From NCBI GenBank assembly GCA_030538215.1, contig JAUNUM010000002.1:1-64000 (forward strand): a stretch of DNA of 64,000 nucleotides. The letters are read 5' to 3'. The translations under genes and the position numbers were made by a program. The notes below the pieces were generated by a model, which was not told the DNA's origin, did no database searches, and was given only the letters and a program-made list of their open reading frames with translations. The DNA comes from Bacteroidia bacterium (GTDB taxonomy: Bacteria > Bacteroidota > Bacteroidia > Bacteroidales > Dysgonomonadaceae). Below, in pieces: positions 29,390 through 61,600 of the stretch; position 1 is the first letter of the stretch; each line of letters opens with the position of its first letter.

Positions 29390-30067
29390 TCACCCGTTCT
29401 GACTAATCATTTTCAACAGTTTTTTATCGAGAATTTTCACATTTCTTCCGGTCATCTCAATAATATTGTCGGCCGTAAATTCCGAAAGGGCGCGATTAAT
29501 GCTCTCCCTGCCCGCATCAACCCAATTCCCGATATCTGATTGCGAAATAGGAAGAACAAACTCATCAGAATTAAAAATATTGTCGGAAAAATCCAATAAC
29601 ACATCGGCCAAATTTCCGCGAGTTTGCTTTTGTGTGCGGTTAGCACATCGGCGATAAGACTCCAGTTCACTTTTAGAGAGTTCCATAATGATATACGAAG
29701 AAAATTCACGGTTCTCTTCCAAAACCTTTCTAAAGACTTCAATATCAATAAAACACACCTCAGAATCCAACACCGCCGTTACGCTATATTGGTTTATTTT
29801 ATTACCCAACGTGGTAGGCAAACCCAAATACGTTGGCGCTTTTATCAAACGAACAATCTGTTCGCGATACGGTCCGGTAATATGAATTTGCGCCAATCCT
29901 TTCCGAAGAAATACCACGTTTGTGGAAAAAACTCCTTGCTTAATAATGGAATCTCCCTTGCGAAAACCCACCACCGCGTGGTTATTTTCCAACAGTTCAA
30001 TCTGGCAATTCTTTAACGTGCTCGATGATTTTATCACACAGGCACAATCGATACATTCGCTCTTCAT
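29390..30067 (-). CDS. CRP/FNR family transcriptional regulator
   Basis: 225 aa. A cyclic-nucleotide-binding-type beta-barrel (about residues 20-120, with FRKGDSIIKQG) is followed by a long dimerisation helix and a winged helix-turn-helix. The recognition helix reads GRESINR (residues 186-192); R187, E188 and R192 correspond to CRP residues R180, E181 and R185, which contact TGTGA. A perfect TGTGA-N6-TCACA palindrome lies 21 bases upstream of its start. The N-terminus has Cys5, Cys8 and Cys10, a possible but unproven Fe-S or redox site. The gene is divergent from the sulfur-carrier/Hdr-like gene run and is the obvious candidate regulator of it and of itself. Confidence 0.9.
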   Translation of the reverse strand: MKSECIDCACVIKSSSTLKNCQIELLENNHAVVGFRKGDSIIKQGVFSTNVVFLRKGLAQIHITGPYREQIVRLIKAPTYLGLPTTLGNKINQYSVTAVLDSEVCFIDIEVFRKVLEENREFSSYIIMELSKSELESYRRCANRTQKQTRGNLADVLLDFSDNIFNSDEFVLPISQSDIGNWVDAGRESINRALSEFTADNIIEMTGRNVKILDKKLLKMISQNG

Positions 30068-30087
30068 ACCACAAAATTAGATAAAAA

Positions 30088-30103
30088 TGTGACATATGTC
30101 ACA
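30088..30103. promoter_or_regulatory. Predicted CRP-type operator
   Basis: TGTGACATATGTCACA is a perfect 16-bp palindrome with the TGTGA-N6-TCACA form. It is 21 bases upstream of the regulator start (29390-30067) and 98 bases upstream of the first DsrE-type gene (30201). This placement suits autoregulation and control of the divergent gene run. Confidence 0.7.
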
Positions 30104-30200
30104 AAATAATGTAAGAATGTGCACCCCAGCAAAGACGATTAATTAAAGAAAAATATCTTTAATTTGCATCGTATTAATTCACTCAAAAATATCTGTTTAA

Positions 30201-30767
30201 ATGGAAACTACAAATGCTATAACTATGGAGAGGCTTCAAGCGGAACTGGAAACCCTGAAAGCACAGACCAATCAGCTTAAAGATTCCCGTAAAGACCAAT
30301 TGTCTATTGCCATTGTGTCGGGCGATATGGATAAAATTTTGGCAGCAATGATTATCTCGTTAGCTGCAGCAGCTATGGATACACAGGTAAAACTGTTTTT
30401 CTCTTTTTGGGCATTATCGGCTCTTCGCGACCCGAAAAAGAAAGCCAAAGGCAAAGATTTTATCTCAAAAATGTTTGGAATAATGCTTCCCAACGGACGA
30501 AATAAGCTCAAATTATCGAATATGAATATGATGGGAATGGGACCGATGATGATTAAAAGCCTGATGAAAAAGCAAAACGTAATGTCGCTCGATGCCATGT
30601 TTAAAGAAGCAGCCGACTTAGGTGTAGAAATTACGGTTTGCGAAATGTCGATGAATCTGATGGGATTCAAAAAAGAAGAAATTATCGATTATCCGCATCT
30701 TCGTTACGCCGGTGCTACTACATTTGTTGCCGATGCCGGTGAAAGCAGCATGCAGTGGTTTATTTAA
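30201..30767 (+). CDS. DsrE2-type sulfur carrier family protein
   Basis: 188 aa member of the DsrE/DsrF/DrsH-like family (DsrE2 type). After an N-terminal helix (residues 8-30, coiled-coil-like), the core has LSIAIVSGDMDKILAAMIIS and a conserved region around C147 in EITVCEMSMNLMGF, the likely persulfide-carrying cysteine; the end is DAGESSMQWFI. Hydrophobic and Met-rich stretches (NMNMMGMGPMM) are typical of DsrE2. Family members pass sulfane sulfur with TusA and rhodaneses. It heads a co-directional run of eight genes to 36333 and follows the regulator's operator. Confidence 0.85.
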   Translation: METTNAITMERLQAELETLKAQTNQLKDSRKDQLSIAIVSGDMDKILAAMIISLAAAAMDTQVKLFFSFWALSALRDPKKKAKGKDFISKMFGIMLPNGRNKLKLSNMNMMGMGPMMIKSLMKKQNVMSLDAMFKEAADLGVEITVCEMSMNLMGFKKEEIIDYPHLRYAGATTFVADAGESSMQWFI

Positions 30768-30777
30768 GCTTACGATA

Positions 30778-31137
30778 ATGAAAAAAATACTTATCATTTA
30801 CAATCAAAATCCGTACAACGGAACAGATGTAATCTGGAATGGCTTACGATTAGCAGAAACTTTACACAAGAACGGTCAATCGGTAAGAATTTTCTTGATG
30901 AACGATGCCGTTGATATGGCTCGCGAAGAATGCAAGCCGCCTGCAAGTTACGATCAAGATTTAAGTGCGATACTGAAAGAATTAATCAAATTAGGAATTC
31001 CCGTTAAAGTATGTGGAACCTGTATGGCGCGCTGTGGTGTGTATAAAAACAAACCTTATTTCGAAGGTGCTGAAAAATCAACTATGCAAGTATTGTCGGA
31101 ATGGGTTATTGATTCTGACCAAGTATTGACTTTCTAA
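30778..31137 (+). CDS. DsrE family sulfur relay protein
   Basis: 119 aa, a compact DsrE/YchN fold: MKKILIIYNQNPYNGTD, then LRLAETLHKNGQSVRIFLMNDAVDMA and a cysteine-rich VCGTCMARCGVY with C79, C82 and C86. One of these is probably the sulfur-accepting Cys. I start at the ATG at 30778, ten bases after the previous stop; the frame is open upstream to a TTG at 30712 but that lies inside the preceding gene. It likely works with the neighbouring DsrE2 and TusA. Confidence 0.88.
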   Translation: MKKILIIYNQNPYNGTDVIWNGLRLAETLHKNGQSVRIFLMNDAVDMAREECKPPASYDQDLSAILKELIKLGIPVKVCGTCMARCGVYKNKPYFEGAEKSTMQVLSEWVIDSDQVLTF

Positions 31138-31174
31138 AAGACCATCAAACATTAATAATTAAATACTTAAAATT

Positions 31175-31426
31175 ATGACAACAGAAGAATTAAGAGCTTT
31201 AGCAGTAGCTAAATCAGTAGATGCTCGCGGAACGGCGTGTCCGGGACCGCTTTTAGAAGCAAAAAAAGCTATTGGCACCATCAATTCAAACGATGTAATG
31301 GAAATTCTTTCGGCAGACGAAGGAACCAAAGTAGATATTCCAAAATGGTGTGGCAAACAAGGTCACGAATACTTAGGCGCCGTAGAAGAAAACGGTTACT
31401 TTAAAGTATATATGAAAAAGAAATAA
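31175..31426 (+). CDS. TusA family sulfurtransferase
   Basis: 83 aa. The hallmark CPGP motif (C22, in GTACPGPLLEAKKAI) accepts and passes on persulfide sulfur. Length and fold match TusA/SirA/YeeD. In dissimilatory sulfur pathways TusA hands sulfur between DsrE-type proteins and redox enzymes; here it lies between the DsrE pair and the Hdr-like genes, which supports that kind of role over tRNA thiolation. Confidence 0.93.
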   Translation: MTTEELRALAVAKSVDARGTACPGPLLEAKKAIGTINSNDVMEILSADEGTKVDIPKWCGKQGHEYLGAVEENGYFKVYMKKK

Positions 31427-31439
31427 TGTACTCCCAGTA

Positions 31440-31465
31440 TAGAGACGGTGCATACACCGTCTCTA
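31440..31465. repeat. Hairpin repeat related to the 54298/59298 palindrome
   Basis: TAGAGACGGTG pairs perfectly with CACCGTCTCTA around CATA. The same stem is found as a 28-bp perfect palindrome within both giant secreted-protein genes (54298-54325, 59298-59325). Here it sits in the 61-base gap after tusA and could attenuate transcription into the next gene. Confidence 0.65.
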
Positions 31466-31487
31466 CAACAAATCAATCCATTACAAC

Positions 31488-31895
31488 ATGGCTATTGCTA
31501 ATAAAAAAACAGCAAAAATATTAGTTTTTTCTACCGAAAAAATATCCGATCCGGCTATCGATATGGCAGGATTACTTAAACTGCATTATCCACCAACGGT
31601 TTATACTATTACCATTCCGTGCTCAAGCGGAATAAAACCAAGTTGGATTTTGCACGCTTACGAAAAAGAATTCGACGGAGTGTTTATTGCTGCCGATGGT
31701 AGTGATTGTGTTTTTGGAGAAACATGTACAGAAAAAACCGGAAATGTGGTCTCCGTAACACACAATAAAATGAAGGAAACCGATATCGATCCGGCACGTT
31801 TACGTATGGCTGCCATCTGTTCGGTATGCAGCGAGTCTTTCGTGAAGCAAATACGCAGCTTCAACGATTATCTGATTAAAACATTACATGCATAG
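31488..31895 (+). CDS. FlpD/MvhD-like iron-sulfur subunit
   Basis: 135 aa, a stand-alone version of the FlpD/MvhD domain (PF02662 type), which in methanogen Mvh-Hdr and in QmoB links an electron donor to an HdrA-type flavoprotein. The pattern TIPCSSGIKPSWILHAYEKEFDGVFIAADGSDC is recognisable; cysteines C45, C74, C80, C111 and C114 could hold a [2Fe-2S] cluster as in MvhD. It lies six bases before the first HdrA-like gene. In QmoB this domain is fused to an HdrA-like part; here it is separate. Confidence 0.8.
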   Translation: MAIANKKTAKILVFSTEKISDPAIDMAGLLKLHYPPTVYTITIPCSSGIKPSWILHAYEKEFDGVFIAADGSDCVFGETCTEKTGNVVSVTHNKMKETDIDPARLRMAAICSVCSESFVKQIRSFNDYLIKTLHA

Positions 31896-31901
31896 ATTTC
31901 G

Positions 31902-33209
31902 ATGAACGAAGAAAGAAAAGTTATCAAATACGACGCGTTAGTTATAGGTGGCGGAATTGCCGGCGGCGAAGCTGCGCTTAATTTAGCAAATACCGGATAC
32001 AAAGTATTACTGGTAGAAAAAGATCGCTCGCTGGGCGGAAAAATGATACTTCTAAGCAAGGTTTTCCCCACGTTGGACTGTTCGGCTTGTATTACCACGC
32101 CCAAAGTATCGGAAATTGCACGACATCAAAACATCACCATTTTTACGGAAAGCGAGGTATCTGATATTGTTAAGAAGTCAGAAAATAATTTTACTGCTCA
32201 AATTACAAAAAAGCCACGCTATGTTCGTGTAGAAGACTGCACGGCTTGTCAGTTGTGCGAAAAAGCCTGTCCGGTAAGTGTTCGCGATGAATATCAATTT
32301 GGATTGATTGGCAGAAAAGCGGCTTTTATTCCTTTCAGTATCGCCAATCCCAAAGCGGCAGCAATTGATATTGAAAACTGTACACTTTGTGGCGCATGCG
32401 AAAAAGTGTGCCCCACACACTGTATCGATTTCACAATGGAAACCGAATATTACGAATTGCACACAAAAACTGTTATATTGGCTACCGGATTCAATTTATT
32501 TGATCCGCTTGAGATACCAAGATACGGTTACGGACAATACAAAAACGTGATTACTTCGATGCAAATGGAGCGCGAAATTGCTCCTACACGCCCATTTAAT
32601 ACCATTTTAAGACCGGGCGATGGAAAAGTGCCCGACAAAATTGCTTACGTGCTGTGCACCGGTTCACGCGATGCAACCGTTGGAAATCCCATCTGCTCAC
32701 AAATCTGTTGCATGTATTCCATCAAGCAAGCGCAATTGCTGATGGGCGCACTACCAATGGCCGATGTAACAATTTACTACATCAACATTCGCTCATTCGG
32801 GAAAGGATTTGAAGAGTTTTATCAACAAGCTAAAGGAATGGGAGTAAACTTTGTGAAAGGGAAAATTGGAAAAATAAACGAAAAAGAAGACGGAAATCTC
32901 ATTCTTACATACGAAGATATCAACGAAGGTGTAGTGAAAGAAGCCGAGCATGATATGGTAGTACTTTCGGTGGGTGCAAAATCCAACCCCACAAACGGAA
33001 AAATGTTCGGTCAGGAAAAACTGAAATTAGATCCGTTCAATTTTATAGCACAAGACGACTTGCAAGGCAATCCTTCCAAAACAAACATTAATGGTGTTTT
33101 TGTAGCCGGAACAGCCTCTGCTCCAATGGATATACCAGATTCCATACTTTCGGCAGGATCGGCATCATCCGAGGCAATTAGTTATTTAATTCAACATCAA
33201 GAGGCATGA
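31902..33209 (+). CDS. HdrA-like flavoprotein (QmoA-like)
   Basis: 435 aa. An FAD-binding GGGIAGGEAA near residue 16, the HdrA-type cysteines C60/C63 in LDCSACITTPKV, two [4Fe-4S] ferredoxin motifs (C113/116/119/123 and C160/163/166/170) and the HdrA signature CTGSRDATVGNPICSQICCMYSIKQA. The short length without an extra N-terminal domain fits QmoA. Such proteins pass electrons through FAD and may bifurcate them. Its last four bases overlap the next start (ATGA), so the two are translationally coupled. Confidence 0.88.
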   Translation: MNEERKVIKYDALVIGGGIAGGEAALNLANTGYKVLLVEKDRSLGGKMILLSKVFPTLDCSACITTPKVSEIARHQNITIFTESEVSDIVKKSENNFTAQITKKPRYVRVEDCTACQLCEKACPVSVRDEYQFGLIGRKAAFIPFSIANPKAAAIDIENCTLCGACEKVCPTHCIDFTMETEYYELHTKTVILATGFNLFDPLEIPRYGYGQYKNVITSMQMEREIAPTRPFNTILRPGDGKVPDKIAYVLCTGSRDATVGNPICSQICCMYSIKQAQLLMGALPMADVTIYYINIRSFGKGFEEFYQQAKGMGVNFVKGKIGKINEKEDGNLILTYEDINEGVVKEAEHDMVVLSVGAKSNPTNGKMFGQEKLKLDPFNFIAQDDLQGNPSKTNINGVFVAGTASAPMDIPDSILSAGSASSEAISYLIQHQEA

Positions 33210-34930
33210 AAGAGAGAATAGGAGTATATATCTGCCATTGCGGAGGAAATATTTCCGATTACGTGGACGTGGAAAAAGTACGGCTGGCAGTGGAAAATGA
33301 TGAAGGAGTGGCTTTGGCAAGAACAACCGTATTTGCCTGTTCAGACTCCAATCAGAACGATATGGTTGACGACATAAAAAAGTATAATTTAGATGGCGTA
33401 ATTGTAGCTTCTTGTTCACCGAAATTACACTTGGTAACATTCAGAAACGTTACAGAGAGAGGCGATTTAAACAAATACACTTATGTGCACACCAATATTC
33501 GCGAGCAAGCATCGTGGGCGCATTCCGATGATAAAACGGGAGCTACCGAAAAAGCTATTCGCTTGGTAAAAGCAGCAATAGCCAAATCGCGTTATGCAGA
33601 GCCGCTATATCCCAACCAATTTGAAGCAGAAAAAACCATTGCCGTTATTGGCGCCGGAATATCGGGAATGAAAGCGGCAGCATCGCTTTCCGATAAAAAC
33701 ACAAATGTTATTCTTATCGAAAAAGAGAATAAAGTGGGTGGACACGTAGCTACATGGGATTCGCTAATTATGTCGGATGAAAAAGGAAGCGAACTTACCA
33801 ATCGTATCTACACCGATTTGCAAAAGCGCAAAAATGTAACTATTCTGACTAATTCGGAAGTAATATCATCAAAAGGAAGTATTGGAGATTTTACATTAAA
33901 AATCCGCAAAAAAGCCCAACAAATAGGCGATCCGATTGAAACAGCAGAGTTTAAAGTAGGATCTGTGGTTGTAGCAACCGGCTTCGATTCTTATACACCC
34001 AAAGAAGGAGAATTCGGATTCTCTTCTTACCAAAACGTAATCACACTTCCCGATTTTAAACATCTGATAGACTCATCATCAGGCAAACAACTGGAGTATC
34101 AGGGAAAGAAAATCAACAATATAGCTTATATCTATTGCGTGGGAAGCCGCCAATCCGACGGAGAAAACACCTATTGCTCGCGTTATTGCTGTACAGCAGT
34201 TATTCATGCAGCCAATCAGGCAAAAAAGAAATTCAAAAACATTTACAATTTCCACTTTAATCGTGGAATTCGCACATACGGAAAACAAGAGTTATTGTAT
34301 GCCGAATCGTTGCAGCAAGGCGATATTTATCTTCAATCGTTTGAAGATGCTCCGCCGCAAGTTTATGCCGAGAATGGGAAAACAAAAGTGAAAATAAAGG
34401 ATATTCTGACCAAAGATAAAGAGTTGGAAGTAGAAGCCGATTTGATAGTGCTGGTTACCGGAATGGTTCCGCGTAGCGATAGCTCAATTGGAACAATACT
34501 AAAACTACCAAAAGGCAGAGATAAGTTTTTCAACGAAATACACATGAAACTTCGTCCCGTGGAAACGGTTATAGACGGAATTACTATTGCCGGAACTTGT
34601 CAGGGACCTAAAAATATTATGGAATCGGTTAATTCTGCGTTATCGGCTGCGGCAAAATCATATTCATACATTAGCAAGGGAATTCTCGAAACCGAGCCAA
34701 TTGTTGCCAATGTAGATACCGATTTATGCACTTGGTGCGAAAAATGTGTCGAAGCTTGTCCTTTTGACGCCATTATCCAAAAAGAGATAAACGGAAAATT
34801 GATAGCAGAAATCAATAATTCGGTTTGTAAAGGCTGCGGAATGTGTACGCCGGTTTGTCCGCCCGATGCCATTAATTTGATAAATTATTCGAGCGAAGAA
34901 ATAATGAGCATGATTGATGCATTGGCATAA
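33206..34930 (+). CDS. HdrA-like flavoprotein (QmoB-like, without the FlpD domain)
   Basis: 574 aa. It starts with the HdrA N-terminal domain (IGVYICHCGGNIS, C10 and C12; SCSPKLHLVTFRN), followed by FAD-binding AVIGAGISGMKAAASL near residue 148, CVGSRQSDGENTYCSRYCC, and two C-terminal [4Fe-4S] motifs (C508/511/514/518 and C541/544/547/551). This is close to QmoB, but the C-terminal FlpD domain is missing and encoded separately at 31488-31895. Paired with the shorter HdrA-like protein it probably forms a heteromeric soluble module that docks to the membrane subunit at 35278. Confidence 0.88.
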   Translation: MKERIGVYICHCGGNISDYVDVEKVRLAVENDEGVALARTTVFACSDSNQNDMVDDIKKYNLDGVIVASCSPKLHLVTFRNVTERGDLNKYTYVHTNIREQASWAHSDDKTGATEKAIRLVKAAIAKSRYAEPLYPNQFEAEKTIAVIGAGISGMKAAASLSDKNTNVILIEKENKVGGHVATWDSLIMSDEKGSELTNRIYTDLQKRKNVTILTNSEVISSKGSIGDFTLKIRKKAQQIGDPIETAEFKVGSVVVATGFDSYTPKEGEFGFSSYQNVITLPDFKHLIDSSSGKQLEYQGKKINNIAYIYCVGSRQSDGENTYCSRYCCTAVIHAANQAKKKFKNIYNFHFNRGIRTYGKQELLYAESLQQGDIYLQSFEDAPPQVYAENGKTKVKIKDILTKDKELEVEADLIVLVTGMVPRSDSSIGTILKLPKGRDKFFNEIHMKLRPVETVIDGITIAGTCQGPKNIMESVNSALSAAAKSYSYISKGILETEPIVANVDTDLCTWCEKCVEACPFDAIIQKEINGKLIAEINNSVCKGCGMCTPVCPPDAINLINYSSEEIMSMIDALA

Positions 34931-34999
34931 TCTTCTAAAGGAAAAAGCACTAAATTATTTAAATGAAAATATACCGTTCATAGATTCAGATATGATATT

Positions 35000-35278
35000 A
35001 TGGAAGTAGAAGTAGGAAAAACAGCTAAATATCTTCGGGAAAAGCAAGGTGTTCCCGAGCACATAAAAGAGGAATTAAAGGAGTTCAATCGGATAAAAAG
35101 AGAGATAACCAATGCCTTGCAAAACGAAGAACTTACGATAGCACAACTGTCGGAAAAGCTACAAATGTCCACATACGACGTTACGTATTATCTAATGTCG
35201 CTAGTAAAATATGGAATTGTGGCTACGGGTGAAATAGACGATATGGATGAATATTATTCGTATAAACTGGTAAAATAA
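35000..35278 (+). CDS. Small winged-helix-like protein in the Hdr-like operon
   Basis: 92 aa. The first third is a charged helix (EHIKEELKEFNRIKREITNALQ); the rest looks like a winged helix (TIAQLSEKLQMSTYDVTYYLMSLVKYGIVATGE). It has no cysteine and no metal site. Its stop overlaps the next start by one base (TAATG), so its product is needed in step with the membrane subunit. It may be a DNA-binding regulator or, more likely given the coupling, a structural or assembly factor. I do not recognise a named family. Confidence 0.75.
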   Translation: MEVEVGKTAKYLREKQGVPEHIKEELKEFNRIKREITNALQNEELTIAQLSEKLQMSTYDVTYYLMSLVKYGIVATGEIDDMDEYYSYKLVK

Positions 35279-36333
35279 TGGCAAGCAAAATAAATCCAAA
35301 ATTCTCGGAAGAACTAAAGAAATATGGTTCTGTAAACTTTAACGCCTGTTACAATTGTGGAACATGCACGGCTGTGTGTTCACTATCTACAACAGATAAT
35401 TCCTTTCCACGCGAAATGGTTAGGCTAAGTGCACTTGGACTTGAAAGCGAAATAAAAAAATCACTAAAACCCTGGGAATGTTATTATTGTGGAGAGTGTA
35501 CAAGCAATTGTCCACAAACGGCAAATCCCGGCGAATTAATGATGTCGCTGCGAAGATGGCTTACTGCTCAATACGATTGGACGGGATTATCGGGATTGTT
35601 GTACAAGTCGCTAATTGCAACTATTTTAGCATTGAGTATTGTAGCTGTTGGAGTTTGGTATTTTGCCCATTCTGTTGGTTACGAAACAAAAACAATGTTG
35701 CATACCGGGCACCTTTTTGAGATGATTGCCATTGGCACGGTATTTTTACTGATTTTTGTACCGAATCTACTCAGAATGTGGTATTTTACAGTGGTAAAAA
35801 ACAATGCAAAAGCACCAATAAAACATTATTTTACGGCGTTAGCCGATTTATTTGTTCACATGTTTACTCAAAAACGGTCAAAAGACTGTGATGAGAAAGA
35901 TAATTTTCGTTGGATGGAACATTTTGTATTGGTAATTGCTTATTTATCGTTGCTTTTCACTACTGTTTTTCTTAACTGGTTTGCCACCGAAAGTATTTTT
36001 ATAATTCTGCTTGGATATGTGGAGAGTTTTTTAGTATTCTTAATTACGGTACACTTTGTATCGGGCAGAATTCAAAAGAGTAAATCGTTAAATAAGTTCT
36101 CGCAACCATCCGATTGGCTTTTTGTTATCTGGTTATTACTAATGGGGTTAACTGCATTTTTGGTTCGTTTGTTTATTGATCTTGACATTCTTGAAACTAA
36201 TAAATGGATATACATTATTCACTTAACGGTTCTTGCTCAATGGGCATTAATTATCGTTCCTTTTGGTAAATGGTCGCACTTTTTATATCGATCGTTTGCC
36301 ATGTATTTTGCAAAAATCAATAAATCACTCTAA
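35278..36333 (+). CDS. QmoC-like membrane iron-sulfur protein (HdrC domain plus cytochrome b-type membrane domain)
   Basis: 351 aa. The N-terminal HdrC-type part has two four-cysteine motifs (C24/27/30/34 and C68/71/74/78, the second in CYYCGECTSNCPQ). From about residue 108 onward there are five to six membrane helices with several histidines (for example HSVGYETKTMLHTGHLFEM, MEHFVLVIAY and VHFVSG) that could ligate heme b, as in QmoC and HdrE. This subunit would exchange electrons with the quinone pool. It closes the operon, and its stop overlaps the stop of the convergent mnmD. Confidence 0.88.
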   Translation: MASKINPKFSEELKKYGSVNFNACYNCGTCTAVCSLSTTDNSFPREMVRLSALGLESEIKKSLKPWECYYCGECTSNCPQTANPGELMMSLRRWLTAQYDWTGLSGLLYKSLIATILALSIVAVGVWYFAHSVGYETKTMLHTGHLFEMIAIGTVFLLIFVPNLLRMWYFTVVKNNAKAPIKHYFTALADLFVHMFTQKRSKDCDEKDNFRWMEHFVLVIAYLSLLFTTVFLNWFATESIFIILLGYVESFLVFLITVHFVSGRIQKSKSLNKFSQPSDWLFVIWLLLMGLTAFLVRLFIDLDILETNKWIYIIHLTVLAQWALIIVPFGKWSHFLYRSFAMYFAKINKSL

Positions 36334-53657: not shown

Positions 53658-56600
53658 TTAATTTACTACCCTTTTTACTTCATTTACCGTTTTCCCGATA
53701 ACTTTCACTACATACACGCCCTGTATAGGGATATTGAGATATTCTGTGGTTTTCGCTTTCACAGCACGTTGTGCCGACAGTCTGCCGCCGGCATCATAAA
53801 CATACGCCGTGCAGTTTTCGTCGGAGTGATTCACCACTGATATGATACGATCATGTGCAAATACTTCTACCGATGAAAGCACATTAGAAATGGCAGCTTC
53901 CGATACCACGCGAAAGCGATTACCTGCATCGCCCTTATATCCCGAAACCATAACCTCAACACCATTGCGAATGGGTATAAGCTGTTTACTACGCAAATCG
54001 CGAAGATATAGGCGACGAGTTTCCACATCCGGTGTTACTGCAAAATTCACCGTATAATTTTCGTTGGCATCGGCAACGAAACTAAACTCCGTTCCCACCA
54101 TATCGGGAACGGTGGCAACTTGAAGTTTGCTGTTATCCGTCCCGATTACATACAACTGAGCAATACCCGTTTCAAGCATTTTTGTTCCATCCCAACCATT
54201 ATCGAAACCACCTGTGGTAGAAGGATTCTCGAAAAGCCATACACGATCGGCAGACCGGGAGCCAATCACATCCATTACCAAATATGGATTTTGCGATGTA
54301 GAGACGGTGTGCACACCGTCTCTACCGGAGCGCCACGCCATACCGTTTACCAAATCGTTTTTCAACAAAGCTCCATAGTTAATCGTCAAAGAAGGGGTTG
54401 TTCCTGTAACCTTTACCATAAAGGCGTGCATGGATGGAATTCTATCGGGTAACCCTGCCGCGCCGGCATTATTGATGGGAACCGCTAAATACGTACCGCT
54501 TTGTATACCTCCGGTTGCACTTGTCACCGGTGTGGAGCCGTTTAGTTTTCGCCACTCGTCGCGTGTGCCGGTATTGAACAAATAAACCGTGCTGTTGATG
54601 CTTCCCGAGAAAGTAAGTCCTGCCGTAGTTATGGGTATGGCTGCCGTATAAGAATTACCGATCAGGTTCATCCCAATATAGTTTACACCACTTGTATAAG
54701 TCAGCGTACGGGGTGTCAAGGGTGTCGTATTTGTTCCGAAATTAATCGTTCTGTTTCCTGTTATCAATTGTCCGGTAAAGGGATAAATAGTAGTTGGAAC
54801 GGTTGTGCTCGTACTGGTTATCTCGTAACCTTCAAACGCATTCAGAGCGGATGTTGCAAGATTGCCGACCCATTTATTACCGTTTATGAACTCATCCCAC
54901 CGGTTAACAGTTAATCCTGTCGTGGGATTGGGAAAAGCAGAAGCCGACAACACCGGTATTCCAAAATATTGCCACTTTTGCGGATAAAAACCGCAGTTGC
55001 AGTTGTAGCCTTTGTTGTAAAACTCAACAGTAGATTGGACATTGCTATTATTAGCAGGATTGGCAAACAAAAGCGTTCCAGTGGATTGATCGGGAGCCGA
55101 TTGTACAATAAGAGTTCCAGCTGTGGTGTTTCCATCTTGTACCGTACCTTCAACGGTTAATTGTTTCCCTGTGGTTACTACTAAATTTTTATCTGATGCA
55201 TTGATTAAACTACCTATAATACGATCTGTATCTAAATGTAGATTGTTTACAGCAGCCGTTCCATAGTTATTCACTGTTGCAAACTCAATATCCTGCCCGG
55301 TTTCGGGTATATATTTGGCAGTCCAATTGTCCAAGTCTGCCCAGTTTTGTTTTGCAGTATCAGTTACTCCATTACCTCCCATCCAATAATTAGTTTTTCC
55401 CCAGACTTTTACAGTTATTTTAAATGTACTGGAACAAATTGAGTTATTGGCTGTCACAGTATAAGTTACAATTTGAGATGACGTAGCAGTATTCGTTAGT
55501 GTTCCTGTTATCGAACTTAAATTACTACCCGAGTTATATCCTGTAATAACAGCTGGGGTTGTTGGAGCACTCCAAGTATAGGTAGTCCCTGAAGGAATTA
55601 CACCATTAACAGCATTTACGGGAGTATAAGAAAATGTTCCTCCCGACACTATTGTTATAGTATAATCATTAACGGTTGGCACAAGATTAAGCTTATAGTC
55701 AATTACTCCATCTACTGAGCTCTGAGTCCCTGCAATATCTTCAAATACGTAAGTAAAATTAATGATAGATTGATTAATATCTACTCCGGTGGTGAAGATA
55801 AGTTTTGCGGGTTCGTATGCTGCAATAGTAAAAGGCAAAGAAGATATAGATATAGGTACTCCATCATAAGCTAACGTTCCATTTGTTTGATTAAGTGTTT
55901 TAATTATCACTTTTTTTCCTATTCCATTATTGAAATTAGGATCATCATCCACTCCATATAAGTCAGGTAACCTATAATTATATGATTTTGATGTTATACA
56001 CACCAATCCCGAAGCATCGGCAGCAATAGGTGGAGATTGGATACCAAAGTTTACATTGGTTTGGCTAGAACCTGCAGAAAAAGATGGAGAAATACCATTT
56101 ATATCTCCGGTAGGAGTTGTTCCTCCTAAGGCTTCACCAGTCCAGAAATAATTGGGATTTAAAGTCGAAGTATTTAGTGTGCCCCCATTAGACACAGTCG
56201 TATTATTTATAATCACTCGTGTACCTCCTGTTGCTCCACTTATACCTGTTATGGTATATGTGCCATCATTATTAATTTTAGTACTGCTTATTACCTTGCC
56301 AGATGCATCAGTTAAAATAGCATATAGCCCACCACTAGCCCCAATATTTGTAGGAGTAGAAATTCCATTTAAACCGGGACCATTATAATCTACAAATACT
56401 TTGCCGGAAATAGTTGGACAAGTTGATGCATTCACCGTAAATGAGGTATAAGATGCGGCAGGACAGCCAGAGCAAGTTGATATTGTTTCTAAATAATAGG
56501 TACCGGGGCCAACTTTTGATGGATCAGCCACCAAAGGGGAACCAATGGTGCTTGTAGTATGCCAAGCATATTTGTAGTTTGCAGCCGTAGCAGTAGGAGT

Positions 56601-58654: not shown

Positions 58655-61600
58655 TCAATTTACCACCCTTTTCACTTCATTTACCGTTTGTCCCATAACT
58701 TTCACCACGTACACGCCTTGTATGGGAATGTTGAGGTATTCTGTGGCTTTAGCTTTCACGGCACATTGTGCCGACAGTCTGCCTGATATATCATAAACAT
58801 ATGCCGTACAATTTTCATCAGAGTGATTTATCACGGAAATAATACGATTATTAGCAACTATTTCAACAGATGATGATATTTTATCGACAACAGTAGTTCC
58901 CGATACTACACGAAAACGACTGCCTGTATCACCTTTAATACCCTTTACCATTGCCTTTGTACCGTTACGAATAGGAATAAACTGTTTGCTGTGCAAATCT
59001 CGAAGATAGAGACAACGGCTTTCTATTTCAGCCGTTACATCAAAGACTATGGTGTAATTCTCATCGACATCGGCTACAAAACCGAATTCCGTGCCTGTTA
59101 TATCGGGAACGGTGGCTACCTGAAACTTATCGCCTTCGGCGCCCGAAACGTACAGTTGCACTATTCCGCTTTCAGTAAGTTTGTGTCCGTCCCAACCGTT
59201 ATCGAAGCCACGCGTGGTGGAGGGATTTTCGAAAAGCCAGACACGGTCGGCAGACCGGGAGCCGATTACATCCATTACCAAATATGGATTTTGCGATGTA
59301 GAGACGGTGTGCACACCGTCTCTACCGGAGCGCCACGCCATACCGTTTACCAAATCGTTTTTCAACAAAGCTCCATAGTTAATCGTCAAAGAAGGGGTTG
59401 TTCCTGTAACCTTTACCATAAAGGCGTGCATGGATGGAATTCTATCGGGTAACCCTGCCGCGCCGGCATTATTGATGGGAACCGCTAAATACGTACCGCT
59501 TTGTATACCTCCGGTTGCACTTGTCACCGGTGTGGAGCCGTTTAGTTTTCGCCACTCGTCGCGTGTGCCGGTATTGAACAAATAAACCGTGCTGTTGATG
59601 CTTCCCGAGAAAGTAAGTCCTGCCGTAGTTATGGGTATGGCTGCCGTATAAGAATTACCGATCAGGTTCATCCCGATATAGTTTACACCACTTGTATAAG
59701 TCAGCCTACGGGGTGTTGTTCCGAAATCAATCGTCCTGTTGCCCGTTATCAATTGTCCCGTGAAAGGATAAATAGTAGTTGGAACGGTTGTGCCCGTACT
59801 GGTTATCTCGTAACCTTCAAAAGCATTCAGAGTGGATGTTGCAAGATTGCCGACCCATTTATTGCCGTTTACGAACTCATCCCACCGATTAACAGTTAAT
59901 CCTGTAGTGGGATTGGGGAAAGCAGAAGCCGACAACACCGGTATCCCGAAATATTGCCACTTTTGCGGGTAAATACCACAGTTGCAGTTATAACCTTTGT
60001 TGTAAAACTGCACGGTAGCATTTACGGTTTGCGTTGGAGATGCAGTCGTATAAGCCTCGCTGGTAAACTTCAACGTACCGGTGGATTTGTCGGGTGCCGA
60101 TTGTATCACAAGCGTTCCGGTGCCTGTATTTTGCACCGTTCCGGCAATGGTGAGCATACTGCCGGGTGTTACCGCCAGATTTTTATCCGTGGCATTGATG
60201 AGGTTGCCGATGGTTTTGCCTCCATCAACAACCGGAACGTTCAAGTCGCTTGCCACAGGCCCCTTTTTGGGATCGGCAACATCTGCCGATCCGTTTTTGG
60301 CCGCGGTTGCAAACTCCACATCATCTCCCGGCATCGGTATATGCCCCATACTCCAATTATCCTTTACATCCCACGCGTTAGCAGTTGCCCTGCCTACCCA
60401 CAAATACGGATTGGGACAAACAGGAACTATAAGCGACGAGGCGCCCTCTGCCATTTCTATGGCATCGCAAGGGATGATGGGAGCCGCTTTGTCCATACTT
60501 AACGATTGAATAACGGTTATTTGTGTCGAAGTATCCGAGATATTATTGGGCGCTGTTACCGTAAAAGTCAGCGTTTGTGTGCCGGGAGCCACGGTTATGC
60601 CCGAAACATTCAGAGAACCATCGGCAGTAGCCACAGCTGTACCACTCGAAACACTGTTGGCTACATACGTGAATCCGGCGCCCAAAATCATGTTGGCCAT
60701 AATTCCCTGATAACTGTACGAGGCGTTCGGATTATTAAATGTAAGCACAACCTTTACCTGTCCTCCCTTTTTAATACACGTAATTCCTTCAGCCGGCGCA
60801 AAGCCCAATACCTTCAACGGTTTTTGCGGCGGCACATCGCCGGTTGCCGTCACAACAGTATTTTCGGTGGCGTAATAGGTATCCACGCTTTGGTACGTGT
60901 TGCCATTTCCCATCGTAAGTGTTGCCCGATTATTAAATGTACCCACGGCATTAAACCTTGCTTTTGCTTTTATAACAACGCTTGAACCACCGGGTATGGT
61001 AAAGTTGGTAATTGTGAGCGTTTGCCCGTCGGCATAGGCATTGGCAGTTACACTTGTTCCCAGCAAGCCCGTGAGCGAATTGTCTACCCAATACATTCCG
61101 GCAGGTAAGTTATCGGTTATATTGACTGTTTGCGGAAAACAACGGGTGTTATTGAGCCTGATGCTGTATTCTACCGCTTCGCATGTGAGTGCGGCGGCTT
61201 TGGATACATCTTTTGTAATGGAGACTCCGTCGGCGGGAACAGGCGGCGGAGGCGGCGGACACGAAAATCTAAAATCGTCTAAACCAATATCCTGAGAGTA
61301 ATCTCCTCCCCCGCCGGTAGTAGAGTAGGTAATGTTTATTTCTTTTACCGCCGTAGTAAATTCCACCAGCATTTTCCCCTGCATATCGTCGTATCCGTGC
61401 GGCCCTATATTGGGGTTGGATATGGCGTTATCCGGCAGCGTATAATAACTGCCGTTGCGCAATATGGAAAGTTTGGGTTTTACGGTTGCCGTACCGCAAA
61501 CACCGGTAATGGTTACTTTGTCGTGCCTTCCCTGCCATTCGTCCAAGTCTTTTACGTAGAATGAGACTAATGCGGCGCTTGACATAGTTATTTTAGCTGT

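Follow-up and report, generated by a model that had tools for sequence, protein, structure and literature searches.

Among the described systems, HcpR of Desulfovibrio is, by analogy, the nearest functional parallel to the regulator studied here. The consensus of HcpR is wTGTGAnnnnnnTCACAw, and its predicted repression targets include apsBA, sat, and possibly qmoABC (PMC1274295, PMC545781). The HcpR regulon centers on hcp, and proteins of the HcpR groups do not carry the FNR-type cysteines (PMC1274295). Our regulator resembles HcpR in being a Crp/Fnr protein with the equivalent of Arg180, the same consensus, and a tie to sulfur energy genes. In contrast, it keeps three cysteines (Cys5, Cys8, and Cys105). 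Since the HcpR groups are without such residues, we do not claim membership. Of the two exact sites in the genome, neither lies at an hcp gene.

The CRP of Escherichia coli shares the fold, the TGTGA-N6-TCACA operator, and the equivalents of R180, E181, and R185. However, its cAMP contacts Glu72 and Arg82 are not kept in our regulator, and its target set is global instead of local. The FNR proteins of E. coli and A. fischeri also have this fold, and their Cys20, Cys23, and Cys122 align with Cys5, Cys8, and Cys105. Nevertheless, the regulator has no conserved cysteine at the Cys29 column. It goes with TGTGA instead of the FNR half-site TTGAT, and has Arg187 where FNR has Val208. The solved structures nearest to our model are 2GAU, a structural-genomics entry for a Crp/Fnr protein of Porphyromonas gingivalis, and the A. 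fischeri FNR (Foldseek ranks 2, 3, and 10, E about 1e-16). 2GAU is the top structural match (TM 0.89) and also the top PDB sequence match. However, it is only 24% identical and presents Val and Ser at the R187/E188 columns of the phmmer alignment.

The divergent locus and its regulator

We analyzed a window of 64,000 nucleotides, the whole stretch under study, which comes from a 2.92-Mb draft genome (180 contigs, 97% complete). In this window, a divergent spacer of 133 bp is flanked by the ATG of the regulator (30067, minus strand) and the ATG of a DsrE2 gene (30201, plus strand). The regulator is a Crp/Fnr-family protein of 225 aa with cNMP_binding and HTH_Crp_2 domains (29390-30067, minus strand). 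Opposite to it, eight genes run on the plus strand (30201-36333). They encode a DsrE2-like protein (DrsE_2, 30201-30767), a DsrE-like protein (30778-31137), a TusA-like sulfur carrier (31175-31426), and an FlpD/MvhD-like protein (31488-31895). These are followed by an HdrA/QmoA-like flavoprotein (31902-33209), an HdrA/QmoB-like flavoprotein (33206-34930), a winged-helix protein of 92 aa with a weak HTH_5 match (35000-35278), and a QmoC/HdrC-like membrane subunit (35278-36333). The top NCBIfam match of this last subunit is qmoC, with 139.9 bits against a cut-off of 300.

The QmoABC complex has AprAB as its partner in dissimilatory sulfate reduction. A family search in this genome (97% complete) gave no match to the aprA or dsrA families. 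Therefore, the Qmo-like subunits probably work outside ordinary sulfate reduction here. The window also contains three copies of a 22-nt inverted repeat, GAGACGGTG(N4)CACCGTCTC, at 31442-31463, 54301-54322, and 59301-59322, with 0 expected by chance. The first copy lies inside the operon, between the TusA and FlpD genes. It looks like a dispersed palindromic repeat.

The regulator has the Crp/Fnr superfamily fold. PF00027 and PF13545 score above their cut-offs, and the structural model (mean pLDDT 85.6) and Foldseek agree with them. The initial annotation had equated R187, E188, and R192 of the recognition helix with R180, E181, and R185 of CRP (mature numbering), and our alignment places them in the same columns. 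The RE...R motif was not found in any other Crp/Fnr paralog found in the genome. The expectation that the signal is not cAMP also agrees with the alignment, where the columns of the CRP contacts hold other residues. Leu83 stands at the Glu72 column, and Gln93 (or Tyr94, with a shift of one residue) at that of Arg82; Ser95 is near the CRP Ser83 column. These substitutions make cAMP an unlikely ligand.

An N-terminal trio, Cys5/Cys8/Cys10, had been pointed out as a possible redox or sulfur sensor. Cys5 and Cys8 are indeed conserved, but Cys10 is not, and Cys105 had been overlooked. Every one of the 43 regulators with RE...R has Cys5, Cys8, and Cys105, and 39/43 have Cys141. Three of the four FNR cysteine columns are then kept, C29 being the exception, and Cys141 is extra. 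In the alignment of 81 regulators described below, the eight without Cys105 are also without Cys5, although some of their starts are possibly misplaced. Cys10 and Cys21 were considered as ligands and rejected, as neither is conserved. Residues 1-12 of the model have a pLDDT under 50 and are not reliable, and they give no usable geometry for Cys5 and Cys8. In the Fnr of Bacillus subtilis, the cluster is held by three cysteines and one other ligand. By analogy, a cluster of this type is possible in our regulator. Fe-S or thiol sensing is plausible, as is a redox or sulfur signal.

The probable operator O1 and its conservation

The primary operator, O1, is the sequence TGTGACATATGTCACA at 30088-30103. 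As first annotated, it is an exact TGTGA-N6-TCACA, and it forms a perfect 16-nt palindrome inside the 133-bp spacer, with no strand of its own. From the base composition of the window, chance alone would give 0.07 occurrences in the window, 3.4 in the genome, and about 1e-4 in a spacer. For perfect 16-nt palindromes of any kind, the window has 5 against 1.35 expected. The genome contains two exact copies of the pattern against about 3.4 expected, which is far from the many random palindromes that would have spoken against the site. The second copy falls within a 584-aa ORF. A refined 16-mer with two mismatches allowed gave 21 strand matches in this genome against 14 for the control, with no clear extra targets. 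Across 31 genomes, the exact pattern is scarce, its counts are near those of the reversed control pattern, and no recurrent second locus was noticed. In a same-genus genome for which no close ortholog of the regulator was found, eight TGTGA-N6-TCACA palindromes occur in about 360 nt (G003:C130:4625-4982). The match of O1 by itself is only suggestive and proves little. Therefore, our argument rests on comparison.

All 16 loci with 60-100% protein identity (L003-L018, window included) have the palindrome in their spacer with 0-1 mismatch. Among named relatives, the regulator is 77% identical to those from MAGs of Proteiniphilum and Petrimonas. We then considered 80 loci from named genomes together with the window (81 regulators), and counted a palindrome when it had at most one mismatch and lay within 300 nt upstream of the regulator. 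It is present for 37/43 regulators with R187/E188/R192 (0.3 expected from shuffles) and for 2/38 without these residues (0.4 expected); the compared loci share ancestry, and these counts are not independent trials. One of the two exceptions is a close ortholog with a frameshift (L072). Six of the 43 RE...R loci have no site within 300 nt, and among them L074 has a perfect copy 369 nt away. This co-occurrence of RE...R with TGTGA upholds the proposed match between operator and recognition helix. The pairing observed here agrees with a published rule for the Crp/Fnr family, in which R180 and E181 are associated with positions G3 and A6 of the binding site (PMC1274295).

The spacing of O1 stays fixed even among regulators with only about 40% identity. 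At L134, a regulator with 42% identity adjoins the operon, and the palindrome there is also perfect. Regulator and operon lie apart in five genomes (G061-G065), and each side has its own perfect palindrome: the detached operons 105-114 nt before DsrE2, and the detached regulators in their own upstream region. Only two genomes with DsrE2 have no close regulator found (G004 and G048, DsrE2 identity 85% and 63%). The best match upstream of their DsrE2 has 3 mismatches. The G004 locus is also decayed, so the absence of O1 there is supporting evidence only. Its operon remnant (L127, G004:C1:1194500-1204500) consists of DsrE2 and TusA followed by a transposase-like ORF of 630 aa, with neither regulator nor operator. 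Conservation in orthologous spacers makes the palindrome secure, and by sequence comparison its assignment is close to certain: O1 is very probably the binding site of the adjacent regulator.

Some regulators have other neighbors. In L087, a more distant regulator with RE...R (37% identity) lies divergently to genes for a molybdopterin reductase, a ferredoxin, and an NrfD-like protein, a set judged by eye to be of the polysulfide/thiosulfate-reductase type. The best palindrome in the 300 nt upstream of this regulator carries 2 mismatches. In L079 and L080, the divergent neighbors of the regulators are genes for rhodanese-domain proteins and multihaem cytochromes instead of the DsrE2 operon.

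Predicted promoter elements and the second site O2

Bacteroides-type promoters have a -7 element with the consensus TAnnTTTG. We located promoter elements as matches to consensus, and the start sites are predicted. On the regulator side, the predicted -7 element, TAATTTTG (30072-30079, minus strand), is an exact TAnnTTTG 8 nt from O1. The predicted -33 element, TTTG (30102-30105, minus strand), overlaps the end of O1. By its position, O1 covers this -33 element and the spacer between -33 and -7. In the operon loci, a CAAA occupies O1 offsets 14-17 (C14 in 27/27, A15 in 26/27, A16 in 20/27, and A17 in 16/27). An exact TAnnTTTG is present 5-9 nt from O1 in 29/37 loci, while the start codon of those 29 varies between 17 and 131 nt from O1. 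Within 60 nt of O1 on this side, the exact element occurs in 31/37 loci against 1.9 in shuffles. In the window, the predicted -7 ends 4 nt before the ATG of the regulator (30068-30079), likewise in several orthologs. The regulator transcript may therefore be leaderless.

On the operon side, the predicted -7 element, TTAATTTG (30159-30166, plus strand), has one mismatch to TAnnTTTG and starts 55 nt after O1. Most operon loci have a TnnnTTTG that begins 53-55 nt beyond O1. When the 27 operon loci were anchored on O1, no conserved -33 element was observed for this promoter. A hairpin in RNA was also considered as a reading of the O1 palindrome. It was rejected because O1 is upstream of both predicted transcription starts.

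The same anchoring of 27 operon loci detected a second, degenerate operator. This site, O2 (TGTAAGAATGTGCACC, 30110-30125, plus strand), lies 22 bp from O1, which corresponds to two helical turns. A second dyad appears only at offset 22, where mismatches average 3.3/10; elsewhere between offsets 17 and 39, the averages are 5.6-9.1. The O2 of the window has 3 mismatches. Its distal half-site CAC (offsets 34-36) is present in 23/27 operon loci and in 5/5 detached operons, which also have an exact TAnnTTTG at +54. In contrast, the CAC is found in 0/5 regulator-only loci, the detached regulators having none at the O2 position. From this distribution, O2 goes with the operon promoter. With two helical turns between the sites, two dimers could sit on the same face of the DNA. 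The initial annotation was right about O1, but it had overlooked O2, the elements of both promoters, and the proposed dual role of O1.

Proposed regulation and its alternatives

We propose that a regulator dimer bound to O1 would cover the -33 element and spacer of its own promoter, and the natural reading of this position is a likely autorepression. From O1 and the weaker O2, the regulator would also act on the divergent DsrE2-DsrE-TusA-FlpD-QmoABC-like operon. This effect would most likely be an activation from upstream. If the -7 octamer of the operon spans about -11 to -4, the center of O1 would be at about -73 and that of O2 at about -51 relative to the predicted start. The regulator would be local, with essentially this single target locus. 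Its signal would probably be redox or sulfur and not cAMP, with Cys5, Cys8, and Cys105 sensing it through a cluster or as thiols. We give a probability of roughly 0.78 to this reading as a whole, in which O1 is the regulator's operator for autorepression and, with O2, for operon activation.

The regulator might instead repress the operon, as HcpR does in the predictions for apsBA, sat, and possibly qmoABC from the same consensus (PMC1274295, PMC545781). However, O1 and O2 are upstream of the predicted -7 and -33 region of the operon and do not overlap it. In addition, the operon lacks a conserved -33 element, as activator-dependent promoters usually do. The position of the sites makes activation more likely, and we regard repression as unlikely.

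It could also be argued that the palindrome serves another, global CRP-like protein and is beside this regulator incidentally, since the 16-mer fits the general CRP consensus. Nevertheless, the presence of the site tracks the helix residues of this regulator, and these differ in the other Crp/Fnr paralogs found in this genome. The separated regulators and operons each keep a site, which is absent in the two regulator-less genomes. Exact sites are few in the 31 genomes, about equal to the reversed control. A global protein is thus very improbable. Still less credible is a chance palindrome, with a probability close to nil. The genome totals (2 found, about 3.4 expected) and the refined near-matches, not clearly above control, would agree with chance, but the site persists at constant spacing even among loci whose regulators are only about 40% identical.

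Autorepression from O1 and activation of the operon with O2 remain our preferred reading. A broader proposal is more tentative. It is possible that a Crp/Fnr subgroup extends through the Bacteroidales, combining a CRP-type helix with a three-cysteine FNR-like site. Such regulators would switch a TusA/DsrE/Qmo-like operon for persulfide electron transfer without AprAB/DsrAB. A non-exhaustive literature search returned no description of this gene cluster with its regulator in Bacteroidales. For this Qmo/Hdr-like sulfur operon of Bacteroidales, the regulator, its exact operator, and the target genes form one testable unit. Knowing the signal by which the regulator is released or recruited would show when these anaerobes use sulfur-linked electron transfer, and probably for what reason.
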